Source: Fictibacillus terranigra (GTDB lineage: Bacteria; Bacillota; Bacilli; Bacillales; Fictibacillaceae). From it: a stretch of 64,000 nucleotides of DNA. Below the pieces are notes generated by a model. The model was not told the DNA's origin. It saw only the letters and a list, made by a program, of their open reading frames with translations, and did no database searches. The position numbers and the translations under genes are program-made. This document shows positions 6,524-23,726 of the stretch, piece after piece (position 1 is the stretch's first letter; each line of letters starts with the position of its first letter). Location of the stretch: contig NZ_JAUHLN010000003.1 of assembly GCF_030412265.1 (NCBI RefSeq), positions 62,001 through 126,000 of the forward strand, given 5' to 3'.

Positions 6524-6807
6524 TCACTTCTTTTCAGACATGACCAGATGAAGGGCGACTGGAACCTTCACACATTCAGCAGCGGTTCGAACCATGTTTA
6601 CGACATGAGCCATGCTGTATATACAATGGTCGACGGGGCCGTTTGCAGGATAACGGGTTCTTTCAGTTCATCGGCCGCCTCCGAGAAGTCTTGAATTATT
6701 TCCCAGTTATAAGCAGGAAATGTTCCGACAGCAAAGTTTTGTTGAAAAGCATCCATCACCATTTCTTTCGACCTGACCAGCGGTATTAGCATCCTCCTTT
6801 CCTTCAT
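6524..6807 (-). pseudogene. Truncated class II fructose/tagatose-bisphosphate aldolase (GatY/KbaY type)
   Basis: After an RBS (AAAGGAGG upstream of 6807) the frame reads MLIPLVRSKEMVMDAF and later EPVILQTAPSTIVYTA, the N-terminus of class II aldolases. A frameshift then moves the match to another frame (MAHVVNMVRTAAECVK, VPVALHL) before a stop at 6524. About 90 of the usual ~285 residues remain, and the Zn ligands and catalytic residues are absent. It sat at the 3' end of the amino-sugar operon, so an aldolase was once the last step of that pathway. Confidence 0.75.
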
Positions 6808-6833
6808 GATCGCCCGTAATTCATAGGCTTATT

Positions 6834-6845
6834 AAGACCAGTCTT
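6834..6845. promoter_or_regulatory. AGAC-NN-GTCT palindrome before the broken aldolase
   Basis: AAGACCAGTCTT: arms AAGAC and GTCTT around two bases. This is the same core found at the other promoters of this regulon (12245, 19348, 21998). No clear -10/-35 pair accompanies it, so it may be a relic of a lost promoter. Confidence 0.45.
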
Positions 6846-6876
6846 TTCGATGTCTTTATATAGGAGCACCATGTCT

Positions 6877-8982
6877 TCACGAACTCGTTAAACAGATGTC
6901 TACTACTTCATATTCCTTAATTTCCGGTAGCTGGATGGTTACCCGGCCCCCATGCTGCACAAAGGCTCCGGTTTTTTTGTTTCGCAAAAAACTGACGGAA
7001 TGAACTTCTTTTGGCAATTGGATATTAATTGTCAGATTCGTTAAAGGCATTACTTCGTTAATCGGTCTCGTCATGGAAGCTGTGTAATTGACTACATGGA
7101 CAAGGACGCGGTTCTCCCCTTGCTTTCTCAAGGATACGTGTAAGGATTCTGTCTGTTGTGCCGTACTGATATTAAAAGGAATCTCTACAAGTGAGCTAAC
7201 AGCATTCACCATGATCCTCCTATATTCAGGAATGGCATAAGATTCATAAAATTTTCCGACATTCCCGGCAAAGTAGATACTTTCTCCCAACCCATAACTG
7301 CTTTTTACAATATAAGGGTAAGAGGTCTTTTGAGGAAGATCACAATATCTTGAATTTTGTTTCTCCCGATAGAACATCACGCTTTCAGAACCCTTTTTGG
7401 CAGTAACTTCAGTTCCTAAACGTGCGGCTGGAATTAATTGCTGGTCAACGGATGTAAGCATAGGATGATGGGGATCGCATTCGATATGATCGTACTCGCA
7501 GTGGCGAATGGTATGCAGCGTTATGCCGAAGACTTCGGCTAACAAAGGCTGATCCCTTTTCATCCCATCTTCCTGATAAAGGGATGTATCAAATGTTCCT
7601 ATGATCTTCCCTCCCCTGTTAACATAAGATTTGAAATGATCCGCCTCTTCTTCGCTCATGACACTCACGTTAGGCAAAATGACAAGCTCATACTTTGCGA
7701 ATGATCCATCTGTTATTGATGTATTGTCTACTATATCAAACGGTATCCTGCTTCTTGATAAAACATCGTACCACCCCATAAAGGAACCTCTGGCGTCGCT
7801 CTTATCAGGATCTCTCAATTGATCCTGACCTGCTGTAAAATCAGTTTCTTCTGACGAAGATTGATAAAAATTGGCCGTATCATAAGACCACATTAAAGCA
7901 ACAGTTGCCATTGATGTTGTGTCGGTAAAACGGTTTTCATTCTCTTCTAGAAAGGCGTTGATTTCCTTCACCGTTTCCATTCTTGCGTCAATATTATTGT
8001 CATTGTAAACGCCATACCATGTATTCGCACCGTGAGATACAGCCATCGCATGCGTCAGCCATGTTTCAGCTGCCGATAATAGATAACGGGACCAGGGAGC
8101 ATGCCGTCCTGCAATGGCTACACAGTAAGGTTTACCTTCGGACTGGGTTTCAAGCAACTGAGCTGTTGCTGCAGGTTTCCAGATCGGGACCTGCCTCAGG
8201 TCGTCACCTAAAAAACCCCCTTCGGCTAAAAGCATATCTTGATGTTTAACGGTAAGCCGGTTATCCCGGCTGCAATAAATGGTTGGTACCAGTTGAGGGC
8301 TGTTCATGTAAATCATGGCATCCGTTTTTTTGCTTTTTAATAACTCGTTTGCTTCCTTCATAAAAAGGGCAATGGACTCCCTTTTAAAACGAAATAAATC
8401 CTTTCTTTCTTGTGGCCCTGCTTTTTCCCACACAGGAAGTTCATAATGAAAAGCCGTTTGGAAATCATGTTTACAGCTTTGGCAATAGCATCCCTCAATA
8501 CGGAAAAAGGGACCGTCCAGGAAAATCCCTTTTATTTTATACGCTGCCAGATTTCTTATGACTTGAAGGGCATACTGGCGAAAAGGAGAATTTATGCAAG
8601 AATATGTTCCCGATCCATAAGCACTCGGTATGGGCTGGCCGTCCGGAAATACCTGCTGATAGTCAGGATGGTGCACAGCGAGCGAGGATGAAAGCCAATG
8701 AACATTGAAGTATACAATAGGGTTAATTTCCAGATTTTCGTACTCGGCTTCGATCTGTTCCAAAATATTTTTTCTTACTTCTACAGCACAATCAGATGGG
8801 TAGTATGTTATGCCTGACTCCCCTTCTGCAATATCGTGTACTTCTACGTGTTCACAATTAAAGCCCAGGCTTTTCCGAATGCGAAACTGCTCTTGAAGAT
8901 CGAGCCTTTCATAAACTTCTGGCCCAGGCGGAATAAAATCGACGATCCTCAGCGGCTTTTGTTTCCATGTTAATGTTTTCAT
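6877..8982 (-). CDS. Putative cytoplasmic glycoside hydrolase, GHL6-like with beta-galactosidase-trimerisation-like domain
   Basis: 701 residues, no signal peptide. The N-terminal ~340 residues form a TIM-barrel-like region with GIFLDGPFFRIEGCYCQSC, typical of hypothetical glycosyl hydrolase family 6 (GHL6). Residues ~400-560 (YELVILPNVSVMSEEEADHF, then GGKIIGTFDTSLY) look like the beta-galactosidase trimerisation domain. The C-terminal ~110 residues are a beta-sandwich-like tail. Last intact gene of the operon, 16 bases after the permease. RBS AAGGAG lies 12 bases before the ATG. An oligosaccharide-processing role is inferred from context; catalytic residues are not assigned. A domain fold search would test this. 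Confidence 0.8.
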   Translation of the reverse strand: MKTLTWKQKPLRIVDFIPPGPEVYERLDLQEQFRIRKSLGFNCEHVEVHDIAEGESGITYYPSDCAVEVRKNILEQIEAEYENLEINPIVYFNVHWLSSSLAVHHPDYQQVFPDGQPIPSAYGSGTYSCINSPFRQYALQVIRNLAAYKIKGIFLDGPFFRIEGCYCQSCKHDFQTAFHYELPVWEKAGPQERKDLFRFKRESIALFMKEANELLKSKKTDAMIYMNSPQLVPTIYCSRDNRLTVKHQDMLLAEGGFLGDDLRQVPIWKPAATAQLLETQSEGKPYCVAIAGRHAPWSRYLLSAAETWLTHAMAVSHGANTWYGVYNDNNIDARMETVKEINAFLEENENRFTDTTSMATVALMWSYDTANFYQSSSEETDFTAGQDQLRDPDKSDARGSFMGWYDVLSRSRIPFDIVDNTSITDGSFAKYELVILPNVSVMSEEEADHFKSYVNRGGKIIGTFDTSLYQEDGMKRDQPLLAEVFGITLHTIRHCEYDHIECDPHHPMLTSVDQQLIPAARLGTEVTAKKGSESVMFYREKQNSRYCDLPQKTSYPYIVKSSYGLGESIYFAGNVGKFYESYAIPEYRRIMVNAVSSLVEIPFNISTAQQTESLHVSLRKQGENRVLVHVVNYTASMTRPINEVMPLTNLTINIQLPKEVHSVSFLRNKKTGAFVQHGGRVTIQLPEIKEYEVVDICLTSS

Positions 8983-8998
8983 TGGTTTTCAATGCTCC

Positions 8999-9844
8999 TT
9001 AACCTTTAATCGACCCTTGCAGCCCGCTTACAAAATGGCGCTGCATGGCAATGTAAAAAATAATAACGGGTACAAGGGAAATGACCACACCTGCAGCCAT
9101 CGTTTTTACATCGGTGCCAAATGTTCCGGATAAGTATGCAAGGCCCAAGGAGATCGGGAATAAACTATCATCCTTTAATATGATCAAAGGCCACATGAAT
9201 GAGTTCCATACAGAAATAAACGCAAATACACTTAGAGCGGCAAGTGTCGGCCTTGTTAATGGAAGAATGATACTCCACCAAACCCGAAAGGGGCCACAAC
9301 CATCGATAATCGCAGCTTCCTCAATTTCTTTTGGAATGGCCAAATAGGACTGCCTCATTAAAAAGATGGAAAAACCTCCAACGAGACCCGGTAAAATCAG
9401 TCCCCACCATGAATCTACCAATCCCAGTTTTTCTACTATAATGTACAAAGGCACGAGTTTCCCTTCTTCCGGCAGAAACATCGTGGCAATAATGGCATAA
9501 AAGATAAAATTTCTGCCTGGGAAGTTCATCCTGGCCAATGGATAGGCCGTTAACGCCGTTAAAAAGATGTGGGCCGGAACCATGATGATGATTAATAGAA
9601 AGGAATTTAATAGGTAACGCGGAAAAGGAATTGCCGTCCACGCTTCTATAAAATGGTCGATGACGGCGGGTTTTGGTATAAAACTTGGCGGAAAACTGAA
9701 TACATCTTGACTGTTCGACTTGAAAGCAGTAGACAAAAGCCATAGAAATGGTCCTATGAAGATGCAGGCGACCCCAATTAAAAGCAAATACAAGAGAGCG
9801 AGTTTACTAATTTTCATCCAGTTTGTTTTTGGTCTTTTTATCAT
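8999..9844 (-). CDS. Carbohydrate ABC importer permease, MalG/UgpE type
   Basis: 281 residues with six predicted membrane helices and the EAA coupling loop (EEAAIIDGCGPFRVWWSIILP). I start at the ATG at 9844 because it overlaps the upstream stop (ATGA) and is preceded by AGAGGGGGG; a longer frame to 9910 lies inside the partner gene. It forms the channel with the adjacent MalF-type permease and takes substrate from the binding protein encoded upstream. No ATPase gene is present, so a shared MsmX-like ATPase is presumably used, as in other Bacillus CUT1 importers. Confidence 0.93.
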   Translation of the reverse strand: MIKRPKTNWMKISKLALLYLLLIGVACIFIGPFLWLLSTAFKSNSQDVFSFPPSFIPKPAVIDHFIEAWTAIPFPRYLLNSFLLIIIMVPAHIFLTALTAYPLARMNFPGRNFIFYAIIATMFLPEEGKLVPLYIIVEKLGLVDSWWGLILPGLVGGFSIFLMRQSYLAIPKEIEEAAIIDGCGPFRVWWSIILPLTRPTLAALSVFAFISVWNSFMWPLIILKDDSLFPISLGLAYLSGTFGTDVKTMAAGVVISLVPVIIFYIAMQRHFVSGLQGSIKG

Positions 9845-10776
9845 TGTATCGATTGCCCCCCTCTTGAAAGCTTGTAATTGATGATGGTCAGGACCATAAG
9901 GATCAGCCATAGGACCATACCCATAGCAGTAGCGTAGCCCATATCAAATTCAACAAACGCTTTTTGATAGATATAAAGCGGGAGAGACATTGTACTGTCC
10001 AGGGGACCTCCACCTGTCATTACATAAATGCTCGTAAACATTTGAACAGTTCCGAGTGTCGCCATAACAACGGTTACAGCAAAAACAGGCCGCAGCTGGG
10101 GTAAGTATACATGCCATAGAATTCTCACTTTTGATGCCCCGTCGATTTTCGCGGCTTCGATCAACTCTTTAGAGACCGTCTGCAAGCCCGCTAAATAAAT
10201 CAGCATATAAAAGCCCGCAGCCTTCCAAGCCTCCAGCATAGAAACTGCTGGAAGTGCCGTTTTTTTATTTAACAGCCAATTAATGTTCGCATGGTCCCAT
10301 CCCATTCCATGAAGGGCTGCATTAATTAAACCGGTAGGATGATATAAGTATTTCCACACTATGGCTACGGCCACCATCGCTGTTACCACAGGGAGATAGT
10401 AAATAACACGGAAGAGCGTGATTCCTTTTATTGTCCGGTTCACAAGAATGGCAAGAAATAAAGGAAGAGTGATCAGCATAGGGACGGTGATCACAAAGTA
10501 TTTCATCGAGTTGCCCAGTGCAATCCAAAATTTTTCGTCCTCCATCATCATTTTGTAGTTTTGAAGCCCCGTCCATTCAGCAGGAGATAAAATATGATAT
10601 TCGGTAAAAGAATAATAGAAAGCATTGATGGTAGGAAGGTATTCAAAAACCAAAAGGAGTACAATTGCCGGCAGCAGGAATACATAAGGAACATAGTTGA
10701 ACTTTTTCTTTTTCTTTTGTTTGATGGAAACTTTTACTTTTTGATGGATATTTGTTTCTACTTGGTGGACGGCCAT
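9841..10776 (-). CDS. Carbohydrate ABC importer permease, MalF/UgpA type
   Basis: 311 residues: a basic cytoplasmic N-terminus (SIKQKKKKKFNYV), six helices, and the EAA loop ELIEAAKIDGASKVRILWHV. The start is the ATG at 10776, with AAAGGAGTGG four bases upstream; the frame extends to a TTG at 10797 that lacks a proper RBS. It overlaps the next permease by four bases. Pairs with it in a CUT1-family sugar importer. Confidence 0.93.
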   Translation of the reverse strand: MAVHQVETNIHQKVKVSIKQKKKKKFNYVPYVFLLPAIVLLLVFEYLPTINAFYYSFTEYHILSPAEWTGLQNYKMMMEDEKFWIALGNSMKYFVITVPMLITLPLFLAILVNRTIKGITLFRVIYYLPVVTAMVAVAIVWKYLYHPTGLINAALHGMGWDHANINWLLNKKTALPAVSMLEAWKAAGFYMLIYLAGLQTVSKELIEAAKIDGASKVRILWHVYLPQLRPVFAVTVVMATLGTVQMFTSIYVMTGGGPLDSTMSLPLYIYQKAFVEFDMGYATAMGMVLWLILMVLTIINYKLSRGGQSIQ

Positions 10777-10848
10777 ATTACCACTCCTTTCAATCAAACA
10801 GCAGCAGCGGACGCGAAATCCTCCGCTGCTGTTCTAAGGCACCGATTG

Positions 10849-12147
10849 TTATTTTTGGTTCTTTAGTGCTTGATTCCAATAGTCAACCGATTTATCCAGT
10901 GCTTCTTTCGCCGATAGTTCACCCATCATGGCAGCACGGATTTGTTCAGTATAATAGTCTCTTAGCTTTTCCTCATCTTTGATCCCTAAAATGTTTACCT
11001 TTAAATGAGGAGCTGTTTCCACCATGATTTTCCTTGCTTCATCATGTATGGTCTTCCCCTTTGATTCTTTAAAAAATGGGTCTTCCAGTGTTTCGGTAGT
11101 CGATGGGAAGATAGGAACAATTTTGGCAAAATCCAATTGATTCTTTGCGTTAGTAACAAAAAGAGCAAATTTGGCTGCTTCTTTTGGATGCTCTGATTTC
11201 TTTGGTACGACGAAGGTTTGAATGGCTTTAACGGCTATGGTTCCATCTCCTCCGGTCACAGGTTTAGTCACTTTTATCTTCGTAATTTCATTCGGAGCAT
11301 TTTTTTCCAGATTCAGCAAAGCGGCTGCTACGGACTGGCCTGCCTGTGCCTGCTGCTTATTTTCATAGGTTTGCTGAAGCTGACGGTCATCTTTCGTTAC
11401 CGCACCAGGTGCAATTGCTCCATTTTTGTACCCGTCTACGAACATTTGTACAAATTTTACGTGTTCATCGGAATTAAAAACGGCTTTTGTATGATCATCA
11501 TTAAGGATTGGCAGCCCCTGGCTCACAAAAACTTCAATACCCGGCAAGTCGTTTGAACCATATACTTTTGGCAGTTTCTCATGAATCAGTTTTCCGTTTT
11601 TCAAGCTTTCTTCCCATGTTTTTGGCGGATTGTCAGCATCTAAACCCGCTTTTTTATAGATTTCTGTATTAATGGTGCCAATTGGAGGTCCGCCATAGTA
11701 CCAAGGAAGCCCTTGAAGTTCATCCTGGAAGGTTAAGCTGTCGATCAATCCAGGAATATATGCATTGAGCTCATCTTTGGAGACAAGTTTGTTAATGGGG
11801 GACAGAACATTGTACTGCTGAATCATGGAGATATCACTGCTGGCCAGATTAACCACATCCGGCACTTTTTTACTCTGCAAAGATGTTAAAAACTTTTTGG
11901 ACGCGTCGGCACCTGGAACATCTACCCATTTAATTTTGACATTCGGATTGGCTTTCTCGTAATCACTGATCATACCTTGAATATAATCATTGAAGTTCTT
12001 CTTTAAATTAATCGTCCAAAATTCGAGCTCGATTTTGTTTCCATTTTTGCCGTCACCTGAAGCTTTTTCATCATTCGAACATGCTAACAAAGGTATAAAT
12101 GCGAGTAAAAACACCAGAATGAACGCAGCAAGTTTTTTCCCTTTCAC
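10849..12147 (-). CDS. Sugar-binding lipoprotein of the ABC importer
   Basis: 432 residues. A lipoprotein signal (MKGKKLAAFILVFLLAFIPL, then LACS) gives a Cys near residue 23. The rest is a family 1 extracellular solute-binding protein (ELEFWTINLKK at the mature start). GTG start at 12147 with GGGGAGGT six bases upstream. It has its own promoter in the 140-base gap upstream, with an AGAC-NN-GTCT operator across the -35 box, in addition to readthrough from the operon start. Substrate probably an amino-sugar oligosaccharide, judged only from the neighbouring GH20 gene. Confidence 0.93.
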   Translation of the reverse strand: MKGKKLAAFILVFLLAFIPLLACSNDEKASGDGKNGNKIELEFWTINLKKNFNDYIQGMISDYEKANPNVKIKWVDVPGADASKKFLTSLQSKKVPDVVNLASSDISMIQQYNVLSPINKLVSKDELNAYIPGLIDSLTFQDELQGLPWYYGGPPIGTINTEIYKKAGLDADNPPKTWEESLKNGKLIHEKLPKVYGSNDLPGIEVFVSQGLPILNDDHTKAVFNSDEHVKFVQMFVDGYKNGAIAPGAVTKDDRQLQQTYENKQQAQAGQSVAAALLNLEKNAPNEITKIKVTKPVTGGDGTIAVKAIQTFVVPKKSEHPKEAAKFALFVTNAKNQLDFAKIVPIFPSTTETLEDPFFKESKGKTIHDEARKIMVETAPHLKVNILGIKDEEKLRDYYTEQIRAAMMGELSAKEALDKSVDYWNQALKNQK

Positions 12148-12221: not shown

Positions 12222-12250
12222 ATTATATTTACCCCTATATTTATAGACAA
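12222..12250 (-). promoter_or_regulatory. Promoter of the sugar-binding lipoprotein gene
   Basis: On the minus strand: TTGTCT (12245-12250), 17-base spacer, TATAAT (12222-12227). The -35 hexamer is part of the AGACTTGTCT operator. Confidence 0.7.
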
Positions 12251-12254
12251 GTCT
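12245..12254. promoter_or_regulatory. AGAC-NN-GTCT operator over the -35 box
   Basis: AGACAAGTCT, with a second half-site TGTCTTTAAA about ten bases away (12261-12270). The same core and the same position relative to the -35 box occur at the operon start (19348-19357). Confidence 0.65.
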
Positions 12255-12287
12255 TTTAACTGTCTTTAAATGAATAGTTTACAAAAT

Positions 12288-14174
12288 TTACAATGGGTTT
12301 GTAGAAACAATGCGTTGGTACTTAATTTCCTTGCCTACCCCCTTTTCCACTTCAGGTGAGTATGAGTTGTAAAAAAGCTTTTTCTCTTCCACTTCCGCTA
12401 TACTGTCAATTTCTCCTGCAATATAAGAGAGAAGCCGGTCGCGTGCTGTATCGATTCTTGTCAGCAGTCCCCCGTACCGAATATCAAGGATCTCCCATCC
12501 AAATGGTTTGTTATTTGTTAACCATTGTTTGCGGTGGCATAATCGCAGCTCCTTCACAGCTTCCTCTAAAAGGTTCAATTCTTTTGTTGCGATTCCCTTT
12601 AGTTCTTCCTTCCTGTTTGCATGGTAAAATTCACTTATTTTTAACCCAAGTTCACTTTTGATCGATAATACTGTGCACAGTTTAATCATAAATGAGTACA
12701 GCTGTCCCCATTGAGAAGAATTATGCACGTATCCCTGAAGTTGTTCTTTTATGTTTTGAAAATGCCGTGAAAAGCCATGGCCTTCTATATTTCTATCAAA
12801 CAAACCCAGTAAAATATCCTGCCACAATAAGTACTTTGACGGACTGTCCGGAATTAAGGCATGTATGTTTGCCTTGGGATGAACATCTAACTTTCCCATA
12901 GCTATGAATGCTTCATAATGAGCTCCAGTGCAAAATTCAAACCGTTTCTTCAGCTGGTTTTTCTCAACCATGCGGTGAAACCCGTGTTCCGCAAATAATT
13001 GCATACCTAACAATGCAAAAAAGAAATTGCTCTCCGCTCCATTATCACCCCACAAAGTCGCAAAAACCTCTTGCACCCCTTTCCTTTTACATACCGTCAA
13101 CGCTGGATTGGTTGTATTGAACGTCTTTTCGTAATGAATAGTAGGACCATGCCATGTCCAGATTCCCCCGGCAAAGACCGGCGGACGTCCGAAAGCTGCA
13201 TGTTTGTTAATATATTCCTCATAGAAAGCCTCATCTTCATTGTAATAATCCCAGTACACCATTTGAACATTTTCAGGGACTTTTTTTGTCTCTTCCACTG
13301 GAATTTCAATATTTAAGTCATAATAAGCATCTGATTCAGACCAAACCCGAAAATACATATCACTCCAAATCATGGGGCGCAATCCATATTTGTTCAGGAT
13401 TCGTTCGACCTGATTTAAATGTTGAGTCATTAAAGTGTAGCGGTCTTTTTTTTCATGCAGATCCAGATACCGTCCCCTGCCTAGTCCATGAGCTTCGTCC
13501 ATGCCAATATGAATACGCCTGCTTCGGAAAGGTGATGAGGCCGAAACAATCATTTTTTCGATAAAGTCATATGTCTTTTGGTTCTCTACCAGCAAAACGT
13601 CTTCCGTATCCTGAATAGCTGATGTATGGGACCATTTTAAATACGTTGATAAATGGGCAAGTGTCTGAATGCAAGGAATAACTTCGATTCCTAAAGAACA
13701 GGCATAATCATCAATCACTCGCAGCTCTTCTTTAGAGAAACGGCCCCGCATGTAACCAAAATACGGTTCGTCATCTATGGTATACGTGTCTTCTGTATAC
13801 ATCATCAAGACGTTTAATCCCATGATGGCCATATATCGAAGAAAGGTTTGAGCCGTTTCCGTTTTCATAACTGCGTTTCGTGAGCAATCAAACATGACGC
13901 CGTTCGTTTCAAAATACGGCTGCTCTATTATACGGAAAGCTTCCTTTTTACGAGATGCTTCTACAAACAGGCCCAGTGCCCGGAAAAAATGTATTGTTTT
14001 TTGGTACGTAATCAACCCTTCTCCATTTTCCAGACGCACTTCAAGCAAAGCTTTAGAAGATTTGACCACTTTAACGGGTATACCGTCTTCTGATATCTCG
14101 ATTTCAAGCTGAGGAGCGAGTTTCTCAATTCCTTCTCGTAATGTGTCCCATTCACCCAGAAATGATAGTTTCAT
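12288..14174 (-). CDS. Intracellular beta-N-acetylhexosaminidase, glycoside hydrolase family 20
   Basis: 628 residues and no signal peptide, so it should act in the cytoplasm on imported oligosaccharides, releasing terminal GlcNAc or GalNAc. The GH20 catalytic pair is visible in RIHIGMDEAHG (about Asp226-Glu227). An N-terminal alpha/beta domain precedes the barrel, and a helical C-terminal domain follows, as in the GH20C-type enzymes of streptococci and Paenibacillus. Start at the ATG at 14174, with AGGAGG six bases upstream, rather than the in-frame codon at 14189. It lies 11 bases after the aminotransferase gene. Confidence 0.9.
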   Translation of the reverse strand: MKLSFLGEWDTLREGIEKLAPQLEIEISEDGIPVKVVKSSKALLEVRLENGEGLITYQKTIHFFRALGLFVEASRKKEAFRIIEQPYFETNGVMFDCSRNAVMKTETAQTFLRYMAIMGLNVLMMYTEDTYTIDDEPYFGYMRGRFSKEELRVIDDYACSLGIEVIPCIQTLAHLSTYLKWSHTSAIQDTEDVLLVENQKTYDFIEKMIVSASSPFRSRRIHIGMDEAHGLGRGRYLDLHEKKDRYTLMTQHLNQVERILNKYGLRPMIWSDMYFRVWSESDAYYDLNIEIPVEETKKVPENVQMVYWDYYNEDEAFYEEYINKHAAFGRPPVFAGGIWTWHGPTIHYEKTFNTTNPALTVCKRKGVQEVFATLWGDNGAESNFFFALLGMQLFAEHGFHRMVEKNQLKKRFEFCTGAHYEAFIAMGKLDVHPKANIHALIPDSPSKYLLWQDILLGLFDRNIEGHGFSRHFQNIKEQLQGYVHNSSQWGQLYSFMIKLCTVLSIKSELGLKISEFYHANRKEELKGIATKELNLLEEAVKELRLCHRKQWLTNNKPFGWEILDIRYGGLLTRIDTARDRLLSYIAGEIDSIAEVEEKKLFYNSYSPEVEKGVGKEIKYQRIVSTNPL

Positions 14175-14185
14175 CGTCAACCTCC

Positions 14186-15409: not shown

Positions 15410-16676
15410 GTGATTCTCCTCTCTGTAACGTACCGGCAACTTTTTGTTTTTGGTAAAAACACGCTACTTTCCGGATGGACGCGATCATTGCTTGAATATC
15501 TGCCATTGTATAAAACTCATTGACAGGGAGCCGAATGGCGGTTTTCAGTATGTTTTCAGCTTCGGGACACAATTCCCCTTCATAGACAGCACCTGTCACA
15601 TCAAAAGGAAAAGTGCTGTTTTGATAGGCCGAACGCTTTTGGAATAATCCGCTTTTGTACACCACTTCCGGAATATAGCCTGCTGATGCAGGTATTCCTT
15701 CTTCTTTCAAGGCAGCAGCAAATTCATCCCTTGTGCAATCATATTTGGAAGGTTCAATACGGAACATATAGAACCAATAGGTGCAGACATTCCCCTCGTC
15801 TACTTGATGCGGATGGATGCCATCCAGCTCTTTAATGCCTTCGGTAATCTTGTTTCCATAGGCTGTTCTGTTCGAACAAATTCCAGGGAGTTTCTTCAGC
15901 TGCGCGATTCCAACCGCTCCTTGAAGTTCCGTCATTCTGTAGTTAGGAGCAAGATAAGATAGGTCCCTGTTTACGATGCCTCCCAGTCTTAAATAATTCT
16001 TATCGGCAAAAGCATGGGTCACTTTAAAATCCTGCTCCTCTGCAGAATTTACCGTTACCATACCGCCATCACCTGTGCTGATATGCTTAAAATCATTGGT
16101 GCTGAAACAGCCATAATCACCGATAGTGCCAACCAATCTTCCATTGTAAGAAGCAAGATAGCTCTGTGCACAATCTTCAATCACTTTTAACCGGTGTTTT
16201 TTTGCCAGATCCATGATCTCATTCATATTTGCAGGATTGCCTGCTAAATGAACAACTAAAATCGCCTTCGTCCTGGGTGTTATACACCTTTCAATAGAAT
16301 TGGGGTCCATATTGTACGTGTGAGGATGAAGATCAGCAAAAACAGGGACGGCATTTTGATAAAGAATTCCTATTAAAGTCCCTTGATCAGTGATGGGACT
16401 CGTGATGACTTCATCTCCTACTGTAATCCCGGCTGCACCCAGTGCGGTATGGACAGCTGCAGTACCGGATGAAACTGCTACACTGTAGGAAATTCCGTAC
16501 ATTTCATTAAATGCATCAAGAAATTTTTTCACTTTTTCTCCGTTATGATAGAAGAGCGTATTTTGCTCCAATGCCTCCACCAGTTCCTTTGCCTCTTCCA
16601 ACCCAAATCGTTTTCCTGTTCCAAACGGCGTATCCTTCACTTTCCGGCCGCCGTGGATCGCCAGCTTTTCACTCAT
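15402..16676 (-). CDS. DegT/DnrJ/EryC1/StrS-family PLP aminotransferase (first paralogue)
   Basis: 424 residues. The PLP lysine is in STNDFKHISTGDGG, the Asp in VIEDCAQSYLA; both are intact. Start at the ATG at 16676 (AAAGGAG about 11 bases upstream); it overlaps the preceding gene by eight bases. Two different sugar aminotransferases next to a Gfo/Idh oxidoreductase resemble the pairing that interconverts keto- and amino-sugars (for example NtdA and NtdC for kanosamine in B. subtilis). The substrate here is unknown. Confidence 0.9.
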   Translation of the reverse strand: MSEKLAIHGGRKVKDTPFGTGKRFGLEEAKELVEALEQNTLFYHNGEKVKKFLDAFNEMYGISYSVAVSSGTAAVHTALGAAGITVGDEVITSPITDQGTLIGILYQNAVPVFADLHPHTYNMDPNSIERCITPRTKAILVVHLAGNPANMNEIMDLAKKHRLKVIEDCAQSYLASYNGRLVGTIGDYGCFSTNDFKHISTGDGGMVTVNSAEEQDFKVTHAFADKNYLRLGGIVNRDLSYLAPNYRMTELQGAVGIAQLKKLPGICSNRTAYGNKITEGIKELDGIHPHQVDEGNVCTYWFYMFRIEPSKYDCTRDEFAAALKEEGIPASAGYIPEVVYKSGLFQKRSAYQNSTFPFDVTGAVYEGELCPEAENILKTAIRLPVNEFYTMADIQAMIASIRKVACFYQKQKVAGTLQRGESHG

Positions 16677-18369
16677 GGAAATTTGTCTCCTTTCCAGGAA
16701 GCACCCATTCTCCAGCTCGTTCTTCGACTTTTTGCTTTTTGCAGCAAACTCCAAAACGTTCGATATATGCTGAACTGTTTTCTTTTTCTTTTACCGGAAT
16801 ACAAATGACAGCACCTGAACAACCGTTCAAATACTTCACTTCTCCTCCTGAAAGTATCCCTTGGATCTGCATCCTTGATCGGCGCCTTACCCACTCGTTG
16901 ATCTGATCTCCGGTCCAAAAATGGTATTCCAACTCTTTGGCGCGCTGCACCACTTTTTTCAGTGCCTCTTTCACCGCTTGATCCCTGTAAATATGGATCT
17001 GATGAAATAAAAAGTGGGCAACTCCGCGCATACCCTTCGTCGTTTTTAAAAAAGGCTCAATGATGGATGTGTCTGCAAGTCTAGATAAATCCACGTCCTG
17101 TGTTAAAAATCCTATTTCTAAAACATCATAGATACGGTTTTTCTTATCGGCCCATGAAATGGGAAAATAAGGATGGCATGTGCCAAACAGAAAGCCAACA
17201 TTCCCTTTTTTACTGGGTCCTCTCGTCTGATCCGACTGGATGCCGAAGCTTTCACACCACTCAAAGAATTCTCCCCAGTTTTGAAAAATCGTGTAATGGT
17301 TCTTATTGGAGACGATGGAATCTTCACCGCTCACTAGATTAAGCCACTCTAATTGCCTTTTCATTTCAGATTGATCCCAAAAACCGGCATCCTCATTCCT
17401 GGCATTGTAGTGGAGCGCGATTTCATGGCCCTTTTCACGAATAACAGGATAGAGAGAAGGACTGTATCCCGGCTCCAGCATGCACCATGTGCTGTGAATT
17501 TGACATTCCTCCAAAACAGCTAGAGTGGTATATGCGGATGCATCGTCGTTTACATCACTATCCAGTGAGATCATGGCTATCTGTTCCATGCCATCTGGCC
17601 AATAATCAAGAAAAGGCAGTGTCAATCCCTGATCAAGAACGATTTTCAATAAATGAGAAATGATTGCTTCTTTCCATAAATCAGCATAGGGGAAAGCAAA
17701 ATAGGGCTGGCCAGTGGGCGTTTGCAAACGATCCATCTCCCAATCCATGGCAAAACCATCGTCTGCCTTTAACAGCCCGTCATTCAAGTTAGCCGTGCCA
17801 TCCGGAGCTGGCTGCCCATCCTTTGTGACAGGTTCTCTTCCCTGCTGCATGCCGACGATGGCCCCAATGATATCCACCGTCCAGCGCTGAAGGGTTCCTT
17901 CTCCTATATCCCATTTCTCAATTAAGGCGCCTGCACGATGTCCATTCTTCGCACCTGTTTTAATTTCTCCGTATTTTTGGCAATGAAATTGAGATGATGA
18001 TGCAGTCCAAGTAAAAGCTTGAAAAAACCGTAAAAATTGCTGATTATGCACGGCATAGCCATCATCTATTCGGTGCTCTGTGAATCCCATGCCCTTTGCA
18101 AACTCTGTCAATTTGCCAATGGAAATAACAGAGCCACCCGAGCGGATGTAATCCCATAGATCCCTTGTCTCCTCATGTTTAATCGGCGGCAAAGCCAACA
18201 CAATCACATCAAAGTGATGAAGCTGATTTGTTTCTACTATCGGTGTGAATGGGATACCCGCATACTGAAATACAGAATGAAAATATAATTCAAAGACGTT
18301 TTCGCCTTTTTCCCATTTATAGAGGGCACATTCTTTGTCCACATACACACCTACCCTTGCCATCCTCAA
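16669..18369 (-). CDS. NodB-like (polysaccharide deacetylase fold) protein with N-terminal alpha/beta domain
   Basis: 566 residues, no signal peptide. The N-terminal ~120 residues look like a glutamine-amidotransferase-like flavodoxin fold (DVIVLALPPI, GGSVISIGKL). From ~265 a NodB-type barrel begins with MISLDSDVND, then GHEIALHYNAR near 314-324. In active deacetylases the second motif is HxxxH; here the second His is replaced (HYNAR), so the metal site is probably incomplete and the activity doubtful. The start is a TTG at 18369 overlapping the upstream stop (TTGA); an ATG at 18363 is possible. It overlaps the next gene by eight bases. Confidence 0.8.
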   Translation of the reverse strand: MRMARVGVYVDKECALYKWEKGENVFELYFHSVFQYAGIPFTPIVETNQLHHFDVIVLALPPIKHEETRDLWDYIRSGGSVISIGKLTEFAKGMGFTEHRIDDGYAVHNQQFLRFFQAFTWTASSSQFHCQKYGEIKTGAKNGHRAGALIEKWDIGEGTLQRWTVDIIGAIVGMQQGREPVTKDGQPAPDGTANLNDGLLKADDGFAMDWEMDRLQTPTGQPYFAFPYADLWKEAIISHLLKIVLDQGLTLPFLDYWPDGMEQIAMISLDSDVNDDASAYTTLAVLEECQIHSTWCMLEPGYSPSLYPVIREKGHEIALHYNARNEDAGFWDQSEMKRQLEWLNLVSGEDSIVSNKNHYTIFQNWGEFFEWCESFGIQSDQTRGPSKKGNVGFLFGTCHPYFPISWADKKNRIYDVLEIGFLTQDVDLSRLADTSIIEPFLKTTKGMRGVAHFLFHQIHIYRDQAVKEALKKVVQRAKELEYHFWTGDQINEWVRRRSRMQIQGILSGGEVKYLNGCSGAVICIPVKEKENSSAYIERFGVCCKKQKVEERAGEWVLPGKETNFHE

Positions 18370-19277
18370 TTTTGGGCCATCCTTTCACCGAGCAGAACAG
18401 TTTTACCCGTTTGCCGGCTTTCATTGGCCGCTTCGATAAAGCGGATGACTTCCATGGATTCATCCATGCCAACTGGAGATTCTCCGGTTGTAAACATTTT
18501 CATTACTTCTTCCAGTAAGCTGGCGTAATGCGGCTTTGTCCCCTTCTGACAATCCACGAATGCAGTACCTGAACGGCGGTGAACCAAAGCACCGAATTGA
18601 TGATTTCCTGTACGATTCCCTCTGACCGTTCCAATTCTTCCATCCGCCCACTTGCCAACGATAACATCGTGATCATTATTGACAGTGCAGCCCACTTGCC
18701 GGCAGCCGGTTCCCATTACAGTGAACAGCATCTCTATCGAATGAATCCCATACCAAAAAAGGCCGGGCAGCGGAGGTTCGATTTTCATTGGACCGTATGT
18801 ATCTGCCCCGAAGATCGATCCTTGATCCATCGCGGCCTGCTGAAGTTCCTCAGAAAATCTCAGGGACGAGCTGCTGCTGACCGGCACGTTGTACTGCTGT
18901 GCCAGATCAAAAATCCGGCGTGCATCAGCAGATGAACAGGCTAAAGGTTTGTCAATATAAATCGGCTTCCCATAAGGTACAACTCTACTGAATTGTTCAA
19001 GGTGTACTCTTCCATCGACGGAAGTCAATAAAATCGCATCCGTTTGTTCCGCTACTTCTTCGGGACTGCCAAGCATTTTCACATGAAAGTCTTTTTCTAG
19101 CTGACGTGTAATCGGTCCAACCCGCGAGCTGCTCAATTCAAAATCCGCCGAGCCCCCAGGGTAGGCAGCAACTATCCTGCCACCTTTGATATGATGAGGA
19201 TTTTTTTCATTGTTTAAAAGATCGGTAAAAGCTGGACAGTGAGTGGTATCAAGGCCAATCATTCCAATTTTCAGCAT
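18366..19277 (-). CDS. Gfo/Idh/MocA-family NAD(P)-dependent oxidoreductase
   Basis: 303 residues. The N-terminal Rossmann region begins MLKIGMIGLDTTHCPAF, the conserved Lys-Pro is in IYIDKPLAC, and GIHSIEMLF is typical of the C-terminal domain. Family members oxidise sugar hydroxyls, often at C3. First gene of the long operon. The start must be the ATG at 19277, because the promoter -10 (19324-19329) overlaps the longer frame; AAGGAG lies 13 bases upstream. Likely partner of the aminotransferases, supplying or using a keto-sugar. Confidence 0.88.
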   Translation of the reverse strand: MLKIGMIGLDTTHCPAFTDLLNNEKNPHHIKGGRIVAAYPGGSADFELSSSRVGPITRQLEKDFHVKMLGSPEEVAEQTDAILLTSVDGRVHLEQFSRVVPYGKPIYIDKPLACSSADARRIFDLAQQYNVPVSSSSSLRFSEELQQAAMDQGSIFGADTYGPMKIEPPLPGLFWYGIHSIEMLFTVMGTGCRQVGCTVNNDHDVIVGKWADGRIGTVRGNRTGNHQFGALVHRRSGTAFVDCQKGTKPHYASLLEEVMKMFTTGESPVGMDESMEVIRFIEAANESRQTGKTVLLGERMAQN

Positions 19278-19323: not shown

Positions 19324-19353
19324 ATTATAAAGGCAATATTAATTTAAAGACAA
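19324..19353 (-). promoter_or_regulatory. Promoter of the nine-gene carbohydrate operon
   Basis: Minus strand: TTGTCT (19348-19353), 18-base spacer, TATAAT (19324-19329). The -35 box lies inside the AGACTTGTCT operator, as at 12222-12250. Confidence 0.75.
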
Positions 19354-19357
19354 GTCT
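19348..19357. promoter_or_regulatory. AGAC-NN-GTCT operator between operon and regulator gene
   Basis: AGACAAGTCT inside AAAGACAAGTCTATA, with another half-site AGTCTTT at 19364-19370. It overlaps the -35 box of the minus-strand operon and lies just upstream of the plus-strand regulator promoter. Confidence 0.7.
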
Positions 19358-19390
19358 ATAAAAAGTCTTTTTTTCTTATTCTTCTTCCGC

Positions 19391-19412
19391 TATAATATGT
19401 GCACACATGTCT
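19391..19412 (+). promoter_or_regulatory. Promoter -10 and weak operator copy before the regulator gene
   Basis: TATAAT at 19391-19396, with only T-rich sequence at the -35 position. ACACATGTCT at 19403-19412 is the operator core with one change and lies near the expected transcription start, suggesting autoregulation. Confidence 0.5.
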
Positions 19413-19432: not shown

Positions 19433-20800
19433 ATGGCGGCTCTTTCTCCGGCGGAAACGGAAAATGGTGTTGCTATTGGTGTGATCGGCCCTTCAGCTTT
19501 AATCGAAAGAGTCCGTGAAGCGCTGCATTCCTTTCCCAATTTCATACCGCTTTTGCGCAGTTATGAGGAAGAAAGTGAAGTTCTGGAACTCACTAAAGAC
19601 TTACTGGCAAATGTAGAAGTATTGCTATTCCTGGAATATCACTTGTTCAGGAAGGTCAAAGAACAAATGAATTTTCATATTCCCGTTCATTACGTACCGC
19701 TGATGGGAACCGGATTGTATCGTTCTTTGTTTCGAAGTAAGAGCCTGTATGGCTTGAGGATGCTGACCATTGATTCGGTGCCTAACCAGTATGTGAATCA
19801 AATATTAACGGAGCTCAATGAAAAGAACACGGACGTGCATATTTTCCAAGGAAGTCCGTTGGCTACAACGGAGGAAATGGTCAACTTTCATTTATCGCAT
19901 TTTGACAACAGGCCAGGCTCTTCTGTGTTGACGGGTGTTGAAGCTGTCTCCGAAAAACTTACCGCTCTCGGAATACCAAATGAATGGGTCACCCCTACCC
20001 ACCAGGATTTAATCGTATCATTGGAGAGGGCCCTATTAGCCACGCGGACAAGAAGAAACAAAGAATCTCAAATTGTCGTAGGTTTAGTAAACATTGATCA
20101 GTTTCGCAAGATGGTGGACAGCTACCCATCAGAACATGAGGTTCAAAAGCTGAAGCTTGATCTACATCGGCTCCTGCTCGATTACGTAAAACTTCTCGAC
20201 GGCCATTTAACAAATCTTGGCGGAGGAGAATATTTATTCTTCACGACAAGGGGCATCTTTGAAAGAGAAACCAGAGGCTATAAATATTTGCCTGTCCTTG
20301 ATGAGGCTGAAAAACTATTGGGCATTTCCTTAAGTGTTGGCATCGGCTTTGGCCGAACAGCCACCGATGCGGGAAACCATGCGAGAGTGGCGCTTCGCCA
20401 GTGCAAGGAATTTGGCGGAAAAGCCTGCTATATTGTCAGGGAGGATCTCAGTGTGATCGGCCCGGTAGAAATCACTCACCCGATGATCTATGATCTTTCC
20501 ATAACGGATGACAAACTTCTGGAGGAAGCAGAAAAAGCTGGAATGTCGGCAGCTTATATGAGCAAATTGATGGCGCAAGTCGCGAGGTACAAAAAAGCAA
20601 ACTACACCGCTCAAGAACTCGCAGCCATCCTTGGTATTACCATCCGAAGCTCTCACCGGATCCTTGGACAATGGATAGATGCAGGTTTGGTAGACGTTGT
20701 TGGAGAGGAAAAAATCTCATCAAAAGGCCGCCCCCGTCAAATTTACCGGCTTTCATTTGTTGCCGACCATTTAAAAAAAATAAGAGAAGCAGTGGAATAG
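19433..20800 (+). CDS. Transcriptional regulator with degenerate GGDEF-like domain and C-terminal winged helix
   Basis: 455 residues, soluble. Residues ~1-160 form an alpha/beta region resembling a sensor domain. Residues ~200-345 resemble a nucleotide-cyclase/GGDEF or GTP-cyclohydrolase-III-like fold (IVVGLVNIDQFRKMVDSYP), with the signature degenerated to GGGEY in NLGGGEYLFFTTRG. The C-terminal ~80 residues are a winged helix (YTAQELAAILGITIRSSHRI). No GGDEF Asp/Glu pair remains, so ligand binding is more likely than cyclase activity. AGGAGG lies eight bases before the ATG. Divergent from the operon it probably controls through the AGAC-NN-GTCT sites. Ligand unknown. Confidence 0.75.
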   Translation: MAALSPAETENGVAIGVIGPSALIERVREALHSFPNFIPLLRSYEEESEVLELTKDLLANVEVLLFLEYHLFRKVKEQMNFHIPVHYVPLMGTGLYRSLFRSKSLYGLRMLTIDSVPNQYVNQILTELNEKNTDVHIFQGSPLATTEEMVNFHLSHFDNRPGSSVLTGVEAVSEKLTALGIPNEWVTPTHQDLIVSLERALLATRTRRNKESQIVVGLVNIDQFRKMVDSYPSEHEVQKLKLDLHRLLLDYVKLLDGHLTNLGGGEYLFFTTRGIFERETRGYKYLPVLDEAEKLLGISLSVGIGFGRTATDAGNHARVALRQCKEFGGKACYIVREDLSVIGPVEITHPMIYDLSITDDKLLEEAEKAGMSAAYMSKLMAQVARYKKANYTAQELAAILGITIRSSHRILGQWIDAGLVDVVGEEKISSKGRPRQIYRLSFVADHLKKIREAVE

Positions 20801-20817
20801 ACCATTCTATTCCACTG
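20790..20817. terminator. Bidirectional hairpin at the convergent gene ends
   Basis: CAGTGGAATAGA and TCTATTCCACTG form a perfect 12-bp stem with loop CCAT. It covers the last codons of both convergent genes. T-runs are poor on both sides. Confidence 0.6.
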
Positions 20818-21928
20818 TGTAGTTTTGAAGCTTATCACTGCTAACCTTACACCCGAGCCCGTACCGATCACCAAGGAATACGGTGCCTTCTTCCCGTACT
20901 GGCCCTTCCGAAACAGGGTCATCTGCAAGAAAAAAAGGTCCATTCAAATCTACCGGCGCTGAAATTTGCAAGTAATTAAAAAGATGGGCACTCGCTGCAA
21001 GACCAAGGGTTGATTCGGTCAAGCCTCCTCCTAGTAAATCCAAGCCCGCCTCCCTTGCTATTTCCCCGCATATTTTCGCACGGTGCAGACCGGCCATCTT
21101 TGTCAGCTTTATTACCGCTGTATCACATGCTTCCAGGCGAAAAGCCTGCAAAAGATCCCCAGGGCTCCAAATACTTTCATCCAGAGCGATCGGAATATGC
21201 ACTTTCCTTCGGATTTCTGCGTGGCCAAGGAGATTGTTTGCGATGAGCGGCTGTTCGAATACGTCCACTCCCAATTTCTCAAGCTTCTTGGCAACATAGA
21301 TGGCTTGTGCCACTGTGTACCCCTGGTTCGCGTCCACCCGGAAAAATAGGCCGGGTGCAGCTTCCTTTACCGCGTCGACCATATAGATATCGTGATCAGG
21401 ATCAAATCCGATCTTAACATCCAAGCCCTTGTATCCCTTCGTTTTCGCATCTGTTGCTTTTTGAACCGCTTCCTTCACGTCCCTTGTACTAATAAGATAG
21501 GACAGATTGATCGTTGAATTCGTTGGTCCCATCCATAGTTCACCAATGGTCTTTTTATTCCTTTGTCCAATTAAATCATGCAGCGCAGTATCGATCGCCG
21601 CTTTTGCAATCGGCTGGCCAACAGTGAGTCCACTCTTAATTTCCCGGTTCATCACTTGATGCACATAAGAAAAATTGTCGATCCTTTTTCCAATAAGAGC
21701 CGGAGTGAAATAAGTGTTGATGGTGGCAGTAACTGATTCAATCGTCTCATAGCTCCATCGATGGCTGGGCCGCGCTTCCCCCCATCCATTCATTCCGTCC
21801 TTGTCGGTAATTTTCACATAAACATGTGGAGCTCCTGCTTGCTTATCACCAACTGAACCACTTGAAATCCTAAAGTCCTGAAGCATGGGTAATGTTAAAG
21901 GAAAAACTTCTATGCTAGAAATAATCAT
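20807..21928 (-). CDS. Enolase-superfamily enzyme, mandelate racemase / muconate lactonising type
   Basis: 373 residues from the ATG at 21928 (AAGGAG seven bases upstream); the longer frame to 22105 has no RBS and crosses the operator. The barrel ligands are visible: Asp in FRVDANQGY, Glu in VFEQPL, Asp in IALDESIW, and base lysines in LDVKIG and VIKLTKMAG. In the KxK motif the first Lys is Asp. The family includes dipeptide epimerases, acylamino acid racemases and sugar-acid dehydratases; the ligand pattern fits the MLE subgroup. Its operator at 21998 links it to the amino-sugar regulon, perhaps for peptidoglycan-type peptides or sugar acids. Substrate not assignable. Confidence 0.85.
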   Translation of the reverse strand: MIISSIEVFPLTLPMLQDFRISSGSVGDKQAGAPHVYVKITDKDGMNGWGEARPSHRWSYETIESVTATINTYFTPALIGKRIDNFSYVHQVMNREIKSGLTVGQPIAKAAIDTALHDLIGQRNKKTIGELWMGPTNSTINLSYLISTRDVKEAVQKATDAKTKGYKGLDVKIGFDPDHDIYMVDAVKEAAPGLFFRVDANQGYTVAQAIYVAKKLEKLGVDVFEQPLIANNLLGHAEIRRKVHIPIALDESIWSPGDLLQAFRLEACDTAVIKLTKMAGLHRAKICGEIAREAGLDLLGGGLTESTLGLAASAHLFNYLQISAPVDLNGPFFLADDPVSEGPVREEGTVFLGDRYGLGCKVSSDKLQNYTVE

Positions 21929-21997
21929 TTTAAAGCTCCTTTCTTGAAGCATGACTAACTTCCTGATTTTTCCCTTTATTAATATTAGACATTTTAA

Positions 21998-22007
21998 AGA
22001 CGCGTCT
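21998..22007. promoter_or_regulatory. AGAC-GC-GTCT operator between the enolase-type and secreted-protein genes
   Basis: AGACGCGTCT is a perfect 10-bp palindrome in the divergent intergenic region (21929-22055), placed to control both genes. Promoter boxes here are less clear: TACAAT at 22027-22032 may be the plus-strand -10. Confidence 0.65.
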
Positions 22008-22055
22008 CTATTTGATAACGTTAAGGTACAATAAAATAACCTGAAAAGGAGAATA

Positions 22056-23726
22056 ATGATGAAAAGAAAAATGAGTGTTATCGTACTCTTGTTTTCCATC
22101 TTCATGTACAGCCTGCTGACAGGATTCGCTCCTCTCCCAAGAGCGGCGGCCCAGACTGACGGACAGCCAGGAGAGATTTTGGCAGATTATGCTGGTGTTG
22201 TCAGGGAGACCTCCCCTCGCTCTGATGGGATATACCACATTGATACCCCAAGATCCATTCAAATACTGAAAGAACTTCATATTAATACGTACTATTACCT
22301 TGTTTGGCATGAGAAAACGGATTGGGACGATTTAAAAAACGAGTTTTTACCTGCAGCGCGTGATGCCAATATTAACATTGTCGTCTATCTCGTGCCTCCC
22401 TCAGAATCTACTGGCGTTCGAAAGTCTTACCCCTACACCACCGATTACATTGCATGGTCAAAAGCCATCGCCCAACTATCACTTGAGTTCCCAAATCTTA
22501 CTGGATGGGCGATTGATGATTTCAACCACAACCTGACGACTTACACCCCCGAATATATGGCTCGAATGAAACAAACTTCTGAAGCCATTAACCCAAAACT
22601 CGTATTTACTCCGCAAATGTATACTGACTCCTTGAATGAAAGCTTTCTACAAACCAGAGGTGCATACATCGATGGCGTCATATTGGCTTTCCGAGATGGA
22701 ATCTATCGGAATACACAAGTCTATGAATCTGCTCAACAGCAAATTGATAACGCGTACAGCCTCTTAAGTTCCTATAACCTTCCGCTTTATTGGATGCTGT
22801 ATGCCTCACAGCTTTCCCTTACCCCGGCCAATCCTTCAGCAAACTACGTAAGAGAAGTGGTGCAAATTGCCCTGGATAACATGAAAACAGGCAAAATTAA
22901 AGGGGTGATTACGTATGTTCTCAAAAAGAACTTTGAACCTGAACCGATAGATGACAAGGCTTATAACGATACTGGGTATCTTAACTTTTTTGTTGGTGCG
23001 GGTGCACCTACTTCAGCCGGTGAAAACGAAGAAGCTTCACAGAAAATCCGGATAGACCGTAAATCGGATCAATATGCGTTAACTTTCCAGACAATGGATC
23101 ATGGCCCCAACTCGATGGGTTATCATAAAAAACAATTGCTGATTGATGGCCAGGTGGTATGGGAACAGGATGCTGCCGAAATTAAAACAGATTTGCAGTG
23201 GAATACGATTAACGTCGATCTTTCGCCATATTTAAGCGGCAAAAGGACTGCCCAACTCTCATTTCGTTTTTATGAGGCCAAACCTGTAAAGAACTTCTGG
23301 ACTTATGCAGGTTTTGATGGTCTTCAACCAGAAGGATTTACTGTAGAAAATGGTGATTTTGCTGATACAACCAGCTGGAAATTTAATTCTAGCTCTGCCG
23401 CCATTATTGGCGAGATTATGCAATACGATGAAAGACGAGCAGAAAGAGCCTATGGACAAACGAAAAAGTCCTATTTAACCTATGGGTTGTATCACTCCAT
23501 TTATACTGCAGATCTTAAGCCACAATTAAAGACTGATTTAGCAGATAAGGCAGAGATGGTGATGGATCATTACTTCGCAGAGAAAAATCGAAAAGCGATC
23601 AATAAGCTTCGCCAGCTGAAAAACAAAATACGGGTGAAAAGCGGACGGGAGATTCCCGTGGAAATGGCACAAAAATGGCAATCCATATCTGACGAACTGC
23701 TAACCTACTATGAAAGCGAGATGTAA
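22056..23726 (+). CDS. Secreted TIM-barrel protein, putative polysaccharide-degrading enzyme
   Basis: 556 residues. A Sec signal peptide (MKRKMSVIVLLF... to about PRAAAQ, residue ~36) shows export; there is no lipobox or wall anchor. Residues ~45-310 look like a TIM barrel, with acidic residues at strand ends, notably LTGWAIDDFNHN and VFTPQMYTDSL. Residues ~330-420 resemble a beta-sandwich, followed by a charged helical tail. I do not recognise the family with certainty; the DDF motif recalls exopolysaccharide hydrolases. RBS AAAGGAG; shares the operator with the intracellular GH20 operon, so I infer that it cuts the polymer outside the cell. Confidence 0.75.
   Translation: MMKRKMSVIVLLFSIFMYSLLTGFAPLPRAAAQTDGQPGEILADYAGVVRETSPRSDGIYHIDTPRSIQILKELHINTYYYLVWHEKTDWDDLKNEFLPAARDANINIVVYLVPPSESTGVRKSYPYTTDYIAWSKAIAQLSLEFPNLTGWAIDDFNHNLTTYTPEYMARMKQTSEAINPKLVFTPQMYTDSLNESFLQTRGAYIDGVILAFRDGIYRNTQVYESAQQQIDNAYSLLSSYNLPLYWMLYASQLSLTPANPSANYVREVVQIALDNMKTGKIKGVITYVLKKNFEPEPIDDKAYNDTGYLNFFVGAGAPTSAGENEEASQKIRIDRKSDQYALTFQTMDHGPNSMGYHKKQLLIDGQVVWEQDAAEIKTDLQWNTINVDLSPYLSGKRTAQLSFRFYEAKPVKNFWTYAGFDGLQPEGFTVENGDFADTTSWKFNSSSAAIIGEIMQYDERRAERAYGQTKKSYLTYGLYHSIYTADLKPQLKTDLADKAEMVMDHYFAEKNRKAINKLRQLKNKIRVKSGREIPVEMAQKWQSISDELLTYYESEM

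Follow-up and report, generated by a model that had tools for sequence, protein, structure and literature searches.

A polarised three-half-site operator and a candidate PrpR_N-like/GGDEF/winged-helix regulator of sugar genes in Fictibacillus terranigra and its relatives

Most sugar regulators of the LacI or GntR type are repressors released by their ligand, and class II activators such as CRP and PhoB overlap the -35 element. The propionate regulator PrpR senses a metabolite as a one-component protein, a property that we take to be shared by the protein described here. As far as the opening of the MabR abstract goes, PucR/CdaR-type regulators carry a GGDEF-like domain N-terminal to the DNA-binding domain, the order also seen in this protein. 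Sugar regulators that act through a local operator are familiar systems. We analysed a 64,000-nucleotide stretch of the Fictibacillus terranigra genome (the window; contig NZ_JAUHLN010000003.1, positions 62,001 to 126,000) in which a palindrome, AGAC-NN-GTCT, recurs around the gene of a 455-aa protein (19433..20800, + strand; the 19433 regulator). This palindrome makes up two of the three half-sites of a longer, polarised control site. This operator is specific, conserved and polarised, and it co-occurs with the 19433 regulator, which we infer binds it directly.

A three-part site that accompanies the 19433 regulator

The palindrome AGACNNGTCT occurs at 6835, 12245, 19348 and 21998 (four copies in 64 kb); dinucleotide shuffles contain 0.44 copies on average, and none of 100 reaches four. 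An earlier sequence-only reading had named the same places, giving the first as 6834 because it cited the flanked form AAGACCAGTCTT. All four copies have an extra GTCT exactly 7 bp past one half and thus share the extended motif AGAC-NN-GTCT-N7-GTCT, or AGACNNGTCT-N7-GTCT. The operator comprises three GTCTTTAA-like half-sites, with H1 inverted and H2 and H3 direct, and the distance from H2 to H3 is 11 bp, one helical turn. The palindrome that the earlier reading put forward as the motif is therefore real but incomplete, as the site has a third half-site and a direction.

Across the 4.97-Mb genome the bare palindrome is found at 21 places vs 45 for the reversed control. It is not enriched and therefore uninformative alone, and we rejected it as a genome-wide marker of the regulon. 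This low count is what chance palindromes or a non-regulatory repeat could give, but the exact three-half-site form has only four matches in the genome, all inside this 15-kb cluster, and the site recurs beside genes in relatives whose regulators are 43-96% identical; we consider a chance origin extremely improbable. The concern that the motif might be scattered at random thus applies to the bare palindrome and not to the full motif. At one mismatch the full motif becomes unspecific, adding five other scattered places in the genome; its reversed control, with up to one mismatch, is matched 23 times (16 forward, 7 reverse).

When the window is scanned with a position weight matrix (PWM) from relatives, only the four sites rise above 14 bits. 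The operator at 12245..12265 (+ strand; AGACAAGTCT-N7-GTCT, an exact match of 42.1 bits) lies upstream of a solute-binding-protein operon, with H1 toward that operon and forming TTGTCT. The operator at 19348..19368 (+ strand; AGACAAGTCT-N7-GTCT, exact, 38.7 bits) lies between the regulator gene and a divergent Gfo/Idh operon, toward which H1 points. A third operator, 21987..22007 (- strand; AGACGCGTCT-N7-GTCT, exact, 24.6 bits), has the gene of a predicted secreted protein on its H1 side and an enolase-type gene on its H3 side. The fourth, at 6835..6855 (+ strand; AGACCAGTCT-N7-GTCT, 22.1 bits), is an orphan discussed below.

Conservation was followed in named loci, the best 80 of 197 regulator relatives. 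They include loci from Fictibacillus (whose regulator is 96% identical), Pseudalkalibacillus, Cytobacillus, Virgibacillus, Brevibacillus, Lihuaxuella, Melghirimyces and Paenibacillus, and presumably, taking family names from the genera, span Bacillaceae, Thermoactinomycetaceae, Brevibacillus and Paenibacillus. With up to one mismatch the site is present in 73 of the 80 loci (164 rows, two of which are one place), and exact copies are present in 45 (72 sites), compared with 0-3 exact sites in all loci and one-mismatch matches in 1-20 loci for nine control patterns. A leave-one-locus-out PWM places 75 of 80 loci above 18 bits and no reversed sequence above 14 bits. By our own open reading frame (ORF) calls, 161 of 164 sites adjoin a gene start, against a background of 7300 of 20000 random positions (36.5%) and 26 of 57 control-pattern sites. 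Of the 80 loci, 48 have a site next to the regulator gene, 61 next to an SDR gene, 40 next to an importer gene and 35 next to a DUF624 gene. When copies are selected by the palindrome only, the third half-site is still seen in 81 of 94 intergenic copies (1 of 8 coding copies), so H3 is no artefact of the search pattern. The consensus across loci is approximately ATTWAARAGACAAGTCTNTWAANNGTCTTTAAWT. In relatives the motif is retained upstream of the regulator as well as sugar operons, and so passes the test of conservation at orthologues set by the earlier reading.

The operator also tracks the regulator at larger scale. Our panel comprised 397 genomes of the order, 161 of them with a regulator relative at E<=1e-5; close orthologues were defined by a best E<=1e-100 (32 genomes, identity 41% and up, the window's genome included) and the strict operator pattern by up to two mismatches. 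Strict operators are found in 27 of the 32 close-orthologue genomes (the window's own among the 27) vs 3 of the 365 others (Fisher p=1.4e-33), and in these 27 genomes 56 of the 61 strict sites are no more than 20 kb away from the regulator. A looser, window-derived pattern has exact matches in 14 of 16 chosen genomes with an orthologue and in 2 of 16 without, these two hits being GC-rich; it also matches exactly in all 12 of the named genomes taken from the loci.

Some other conserved regulator might bind the motif and merely co-occur with the 19433 family; LacI genes fronted by two sites on other contigs, and a ROK regulator encoded nearby at 24759, would provide candidates. Yet site presence follows close 19433 orthologues across the panel, the site adjoins the 19433 homologue's own gene in more than half of the named loci, and all 54 of the aligned sequences keep R405 and R409, two residues of the presumed recognition helix. 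We consider this explanation very unlikely. The proposal that a single regulator, the 19433 protein, may act via the motif on the surrounding carbohydrate genes is supported, because the full motif is non-random, is conserved upstream in relatives and tracks the regulator in the 397 genomes. The description of these genes as previously unlinked does not hold: they are contiguous and form one physical cluster.

Polarity, promoter geometry and the sense of control

A gene lies on the H1 side only at 48 sites, on the H3 side only at 2, on both sides at 111 and on neither at 3, so that H1 faces a gene at 159 of 161 gene-adjacent sites. Read in the H1 direction, the operator usually gives TTGTCT, and thus its AA centre supplies the TT of a -35 element. 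On this side, the two commonest kinds of target promoter have a -10 element (4/6 or better) 17 bp beyond the end of the operator in 33 of 39 cases (solute-binding-protein type) and 49 of 75 cases (SDR); in all eight Gfo/Idh promoters of the 80 loci the distance is 17-18 bp. The window conforms to this geometry at the two promoters where the sequence-only reading had seen a -35 hexamer: upstream of the solute-binding-protein operon TTGTCT is followed after 17 bp by TATAAT (12222..12227, - strand), and the TATAAT of the Gfo/Idh operon (19324..19329, - strand) lies 18 bp from the 19348 operator. The arrangement is not matched likewise at 21998 (centre GC) or 6835 (centre CA).

A second class of sites, mostly AT-centred, is located near the regulator start. 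In 24 loci the regulator has two upstream sites; of these, the operon-facing site is AA-centred in all 24, and the site nearer the regulator start is AT-centred in 21, AA-centred in 2 and GT-centred in 1, with an 8-bp spacer in 7. Where there is just one upstream site (22 loci), its centre is AA in 21 cases and AT in 1; sites away from the regulator upstream region have AA in 79 of 92. In the window, the one-change copy noticed earlier at 19403 is present as the degenerate, AT-centred ACACATGTCT (19403..19412, + strand). It lies between the -10-like TATAAT of the regulator gene (19391..19396, + strand) and the regulator start, a position resembling that of the second site in 24 of the 80 loci.

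We favour, as the probable reading, a model in which the motif is the operator of the 19433 regulator and the protein is a ligand-responsive activator of sugar operons with auto-repression. The PrpR_N-like domain would sense a ligand, possibly an amino-sugar or oxidised-sugar intermediate. The ligand-bound regulator would sit beside or over the -35 and recruit RNA polymerase as class II activators do, and the recruited polymerase would transcribe the import and degradation operons. Binding to the AT-centred second site near the regulator start would confer negative autoregulation. Under such control, the 12245 promoter would serve the importer and the GH42M/GHL6-type hydrolase, the 19348 promoter the Gfo/Idh enzyme, the 566-aa protein, two aminotransferases and GH20C, and the 21987 promoter the secreted protein and perhaps the enolase-type gene.

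The main rival retains this regulator and operator and makes the protein a repressor that occludes the -35 until a sugar ligand frees it. The -35 hexamer lies inside the operator, so the 17-bp spacing could follow from promoter geometry alone, and the second site near the regulator start is repressor-like in place, at several loci beside the ribosome-binding site. Three features speak against a repressor: the strong polarity of the sites; the poor hexamer, TTGTCT matching the TTGACA consensus at only 4/6 positions and the 21987 and 6835 hexamers being poorer by eye; and the retention of AA at the operon-facing site of two-site loci with mostly AT at the other. A repressor is, in our judgement, possible but unlikely.

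Besides the ambiguous spacing, a number of findings weigh against the favoured model. The window sites 21987 and 6835 are weak and supply no TTGTCT. A set of 37 mixed, rarer H1-side promoters has no clear 17-bp -10 peak, and there is a weak 17-bp rise on the H3 side (regulator 10/60, DUF624 7/35; 4/6 or better). Five of the 80 loci have no PWM site, one of them (L114) being cut at the regulator, and the loci are related, many being close relatives, so that their counts are not independent events. The strict operator is missing from five of the 32 close-orthologue genomes (41-47% identity). Conversely, exact matches occur in 6 of 40 genomes having only distant paralogues, in five of the six far from the paralogue or on another contig (G036 lies outside the comparison), and one genome that does have an orthologue (G008, contig 97) has a far site with two mismatches that adjoins no related gene and looks like chance. 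The exact sites in distant-paralogue genomes were considered as targets and rejected; at five of six such loci (L187, L188, L189, L191 and L192) the site lies in or beside genes unlike the gene set of the named loci.

Genes at the operators in the window and in relatives

Operator and regulator probably switch on lineage-specific sugar-degradation gene sets in many Bacillus-like bacteria. In the window, the solute-binding-protein operon encodes an ATP-binding cassette (ABC) solute-binding protein (10849..12147; Pfam SBP_bac_1), two ABC sugar permeases (9841..10797 and 8999..9910; Pfam BPD_transp_1) and a GH42M/GHL6-type glycoside hydrolase-like protein (6877..8982; Pfam, with GHL6 just below cut-off), all on the - strand. 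The Gfo/Idh operon, also on the - strand, comprises a Gfo/Idh/MocA-type dehydrogenase (18366..19277; Pfam and sequence), a 566-aa protein without family match (16669..18369) that is kept beside the aminotransferases in relatives, two DegT/DnrJ/EryC1 aminotransferases (15402..16754 and 14186..15439; Pfam) and a GH20C beta-N-acetylhexosaminidase-like enzyme (12288..14189; Pfam). The dehydrogenase gene probably starts at 19277, since the longest-ORF start, 19325, overlaps the gene's own -10.

At the 21987 operator, the H1-side gene (22056..23726, + strand) encodes a 556-aa protein that is probably secreted, judging by a signal-like N-terminus read by eye. It has no Pfam, NCBIfam or PDB-sequence match, and counterparts in five relatives are 55-89% identical; the label 'depolymerase' once given to it finds no backing in family or structure. 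The H3-side gene (20807..21928, - strand; Pfam, query from 21931, one codon upstream) encodes an enolase-superfamily (mandelate racemase/muconate lactonizing) enzyme. Its place on the H3 side qualifies the earlier suggestion that it is a target in the window, although a Lihuaxuella homologue is faced by a site of its own.

In relatives, the core targets comprise an SDR gene with a DHDPS-family gene behind it, an ABC importer, DUF624 and the regulator itself. Lineage-variable followers are Gfo/Idh, zinc-type and FAD-type oxidoreductases, GH20C, GH1 and an esterase; the clade of the window has instead the divergent operon of Gfo/Idh, the 566-aa protein, two aminotransferases and GH20C. On other contigs, sites stand in front of the enolase-type gene (Lihuaxuella), a solute-binding-protein paralogue, a secreted 649-aa protein and, in two genomes, a LacI-permease pair. 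That such sites front homologues of cluster genes is an argument that the regulator is diffusible.

At L227 and L229, which belong to two genomes from different families, the operator on the other contig faces the gene of a LacI-type regulator followed by an ABC permease gene (names by eye). The recurrence of this LacI-permease pair with a site suggests a regulatory cascade.

The orphan operator has a counterpart in Fictibacillus sp. FJAT-27399 (L218), where it fronts an operon missing from the window. By reading, this operon encodes an SDR, DHDPS, class II aldolase, PfkB-type kinase, SIS and ROK proteins; the aldolase alone was family-searched, via the window fragment (PF01116, E 1.2e-9). Compared with FJAT-27399, about six genes are gone from window 6043-6834, and a class II aldolase fragment (6539..6810, - strand; blastn to L218 6305-6579, 72%) and the operator are left. 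The sequence comparison thus marks 6835 as an apparent orphan site fronting the remnant of a deleted operon. The FJAT-27399 gene set resembles that for N-acetylgalactosamine/tagatose-6-phosphate breakdown, and we therefore guess, by analogy, that the substrates may be amino sugars.

Elsewhere in the window's genome (G000:C8:293358-294377, L219), an SDR gene whose product is 61% identical to that of FJAT-27399 is followed by a DHDPS-like gene. The pair adjoins an Nramp-like permease gene (by eye), and there is no operator there. An exact distal operator in another genome (G344; L091, 1501) fronts a similar Nramp-like permease (names by eye).

Next to the regulon cluster, window 24759-29895 holds genes for the ROK regulator (24759), an SIS protein, a NagA-like amidohydrolase, a glucosamine-6-phosphate isomerase-like protein and a ceramidase-like protein, which by their sequences would form a second, adjoining amino-sugar cluster, in which scanning with the matrix finds no operator above 14 bits. 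At 5524-5880 a short ORF has a sub-threshold Pfam match to the metallo-beta-lactamase fold and is probably a truncated gene.

The regulator and its closest described counterparts

The 19433 regulator consists of a PrpR_N-like sensor (residues ~13-202), a degenerate GGDEF domain (~214-336) and a winged helix (~373-440). Its Pfam and NCBIfam matches are weak: GTP cyclohydrolase III and GGDEF_GdpP in the middle, and HTH_Crp_2 at the C-terminus with 24.6 bits, below the cut-off of 27. An AlphaFold2 model from 54 sequences has a mean predicted local distance difference test score (pLDDT) of 80 and a predicted TM-score (pTM) of 0.65. With this model, Foldseek relates the first ~200 residues to the PrpR N-domains 2q5c and 2pju (TM-score by target 0.77 and 0.74), a sensor that has no Pfam match at E 0.001, and the middle domain to the GGDEF structures 4zvf and 3bre and to GTP cyclohydrolase III. 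The helices and strands of the model suggest a winged helix at 373-440. Among four plasmid records with a regulator relative, three annotate a 'hypothetical protein' and one has no feature there. One relative (L160, 4037-5631) lies near L-serine dehydratase genes in a Paenibacillus metagenome-assembled genome, and another, on a Prescottella plasmid (L185, 3659-6332), directly adjoins an L-serine ammonia-lyase gene.

Residues 13-202 share their fold with PrpR. Unlike PrpR/NtrC-type sigma-54 activators, the regulator has GGDEF and winged-helix domains after the sensor; it has no Pfam match to the AAA+ sigma-54 interaction domain, whose place is taken by the GGDEF fold. This middle domain shares the GGDEF fold with diguanylate cyclases (DosC, WspR, DgcZ) and is similar in fold, and weakly in sequence, to GTP cyclohydrolase III. 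Diguanylate cyclases have conserved acidic metal ligands, whereas the regulator, aligned by eye, has N220 and G265 in these columns, which we take from PleD to be the first Asp of the DxD strand and the third residue of the GGDEF signature. The two columns vary among the 54 relatives (D in 13 of 54; E or D in 37 of 54), and cyclase activity is therefore unlikely; from N220 and G265 we likewise judged a role in making cyclic di-GMP unlikely. Compared with PucR/CdaR proteins, the regulator has a different sensor and a winged helix instead of the PucR-type C-terminal helix-turn-helix, which a Pfam scan at E 0.001 does not find (sub-threshold HTH_Crp_2 only). Nor does Pfam detect a cNMP-binding domain of the kind found in CRP/FNR.

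The listings and abstract openings returned by a literature search include no paper on the regulator or the motif, and the titles found for the motif are unrelated. To our knowledge, and as far as these partial sources go, the domain architecture, the polarised three-half-site operator and the two centre classes have not been described previously. We see even chances for a broader interpretation: a new transcription-factor family (PrpR_N-like sensor, inactive GGDEF, winged helix) whose three-half-site operator has built-in promoter information, an AA centre providing the -35 of an activated promoter and an AT centre, with the -35 lost, an autorepression block, and whose gene repertoire is exchanged from one lineage to the next around a retained operator and regulator. 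The operator offers a sequence handle on the regulon in Bacillaceae, Thermoactinomycetaceae, Brevibacillus and Paenibacillus loci, and ties unannotated enzymes (the 566-aa protein, the 556-aa secreted protein, the SDR/DHDPS pair) to sugar breakdown. Because sites have either an AA or an AT centre in most cases, a precise and inexpensive test is available of how a single motif could encode activation or repression.

In its operator, the regulator resembles sugar one-component regulators, with sites upstream of its own gene and of transport and catabolism operons that are kept in relatives. It resembles class II activators in that the operator is polarised, lies over the -35 and contains tandem half-sites at 11 bp. 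It differs from class II activators in having three half-sites, one of them inverted, in an operator that itself supplies the -35-like hexamer, and in its unrelated sensor.

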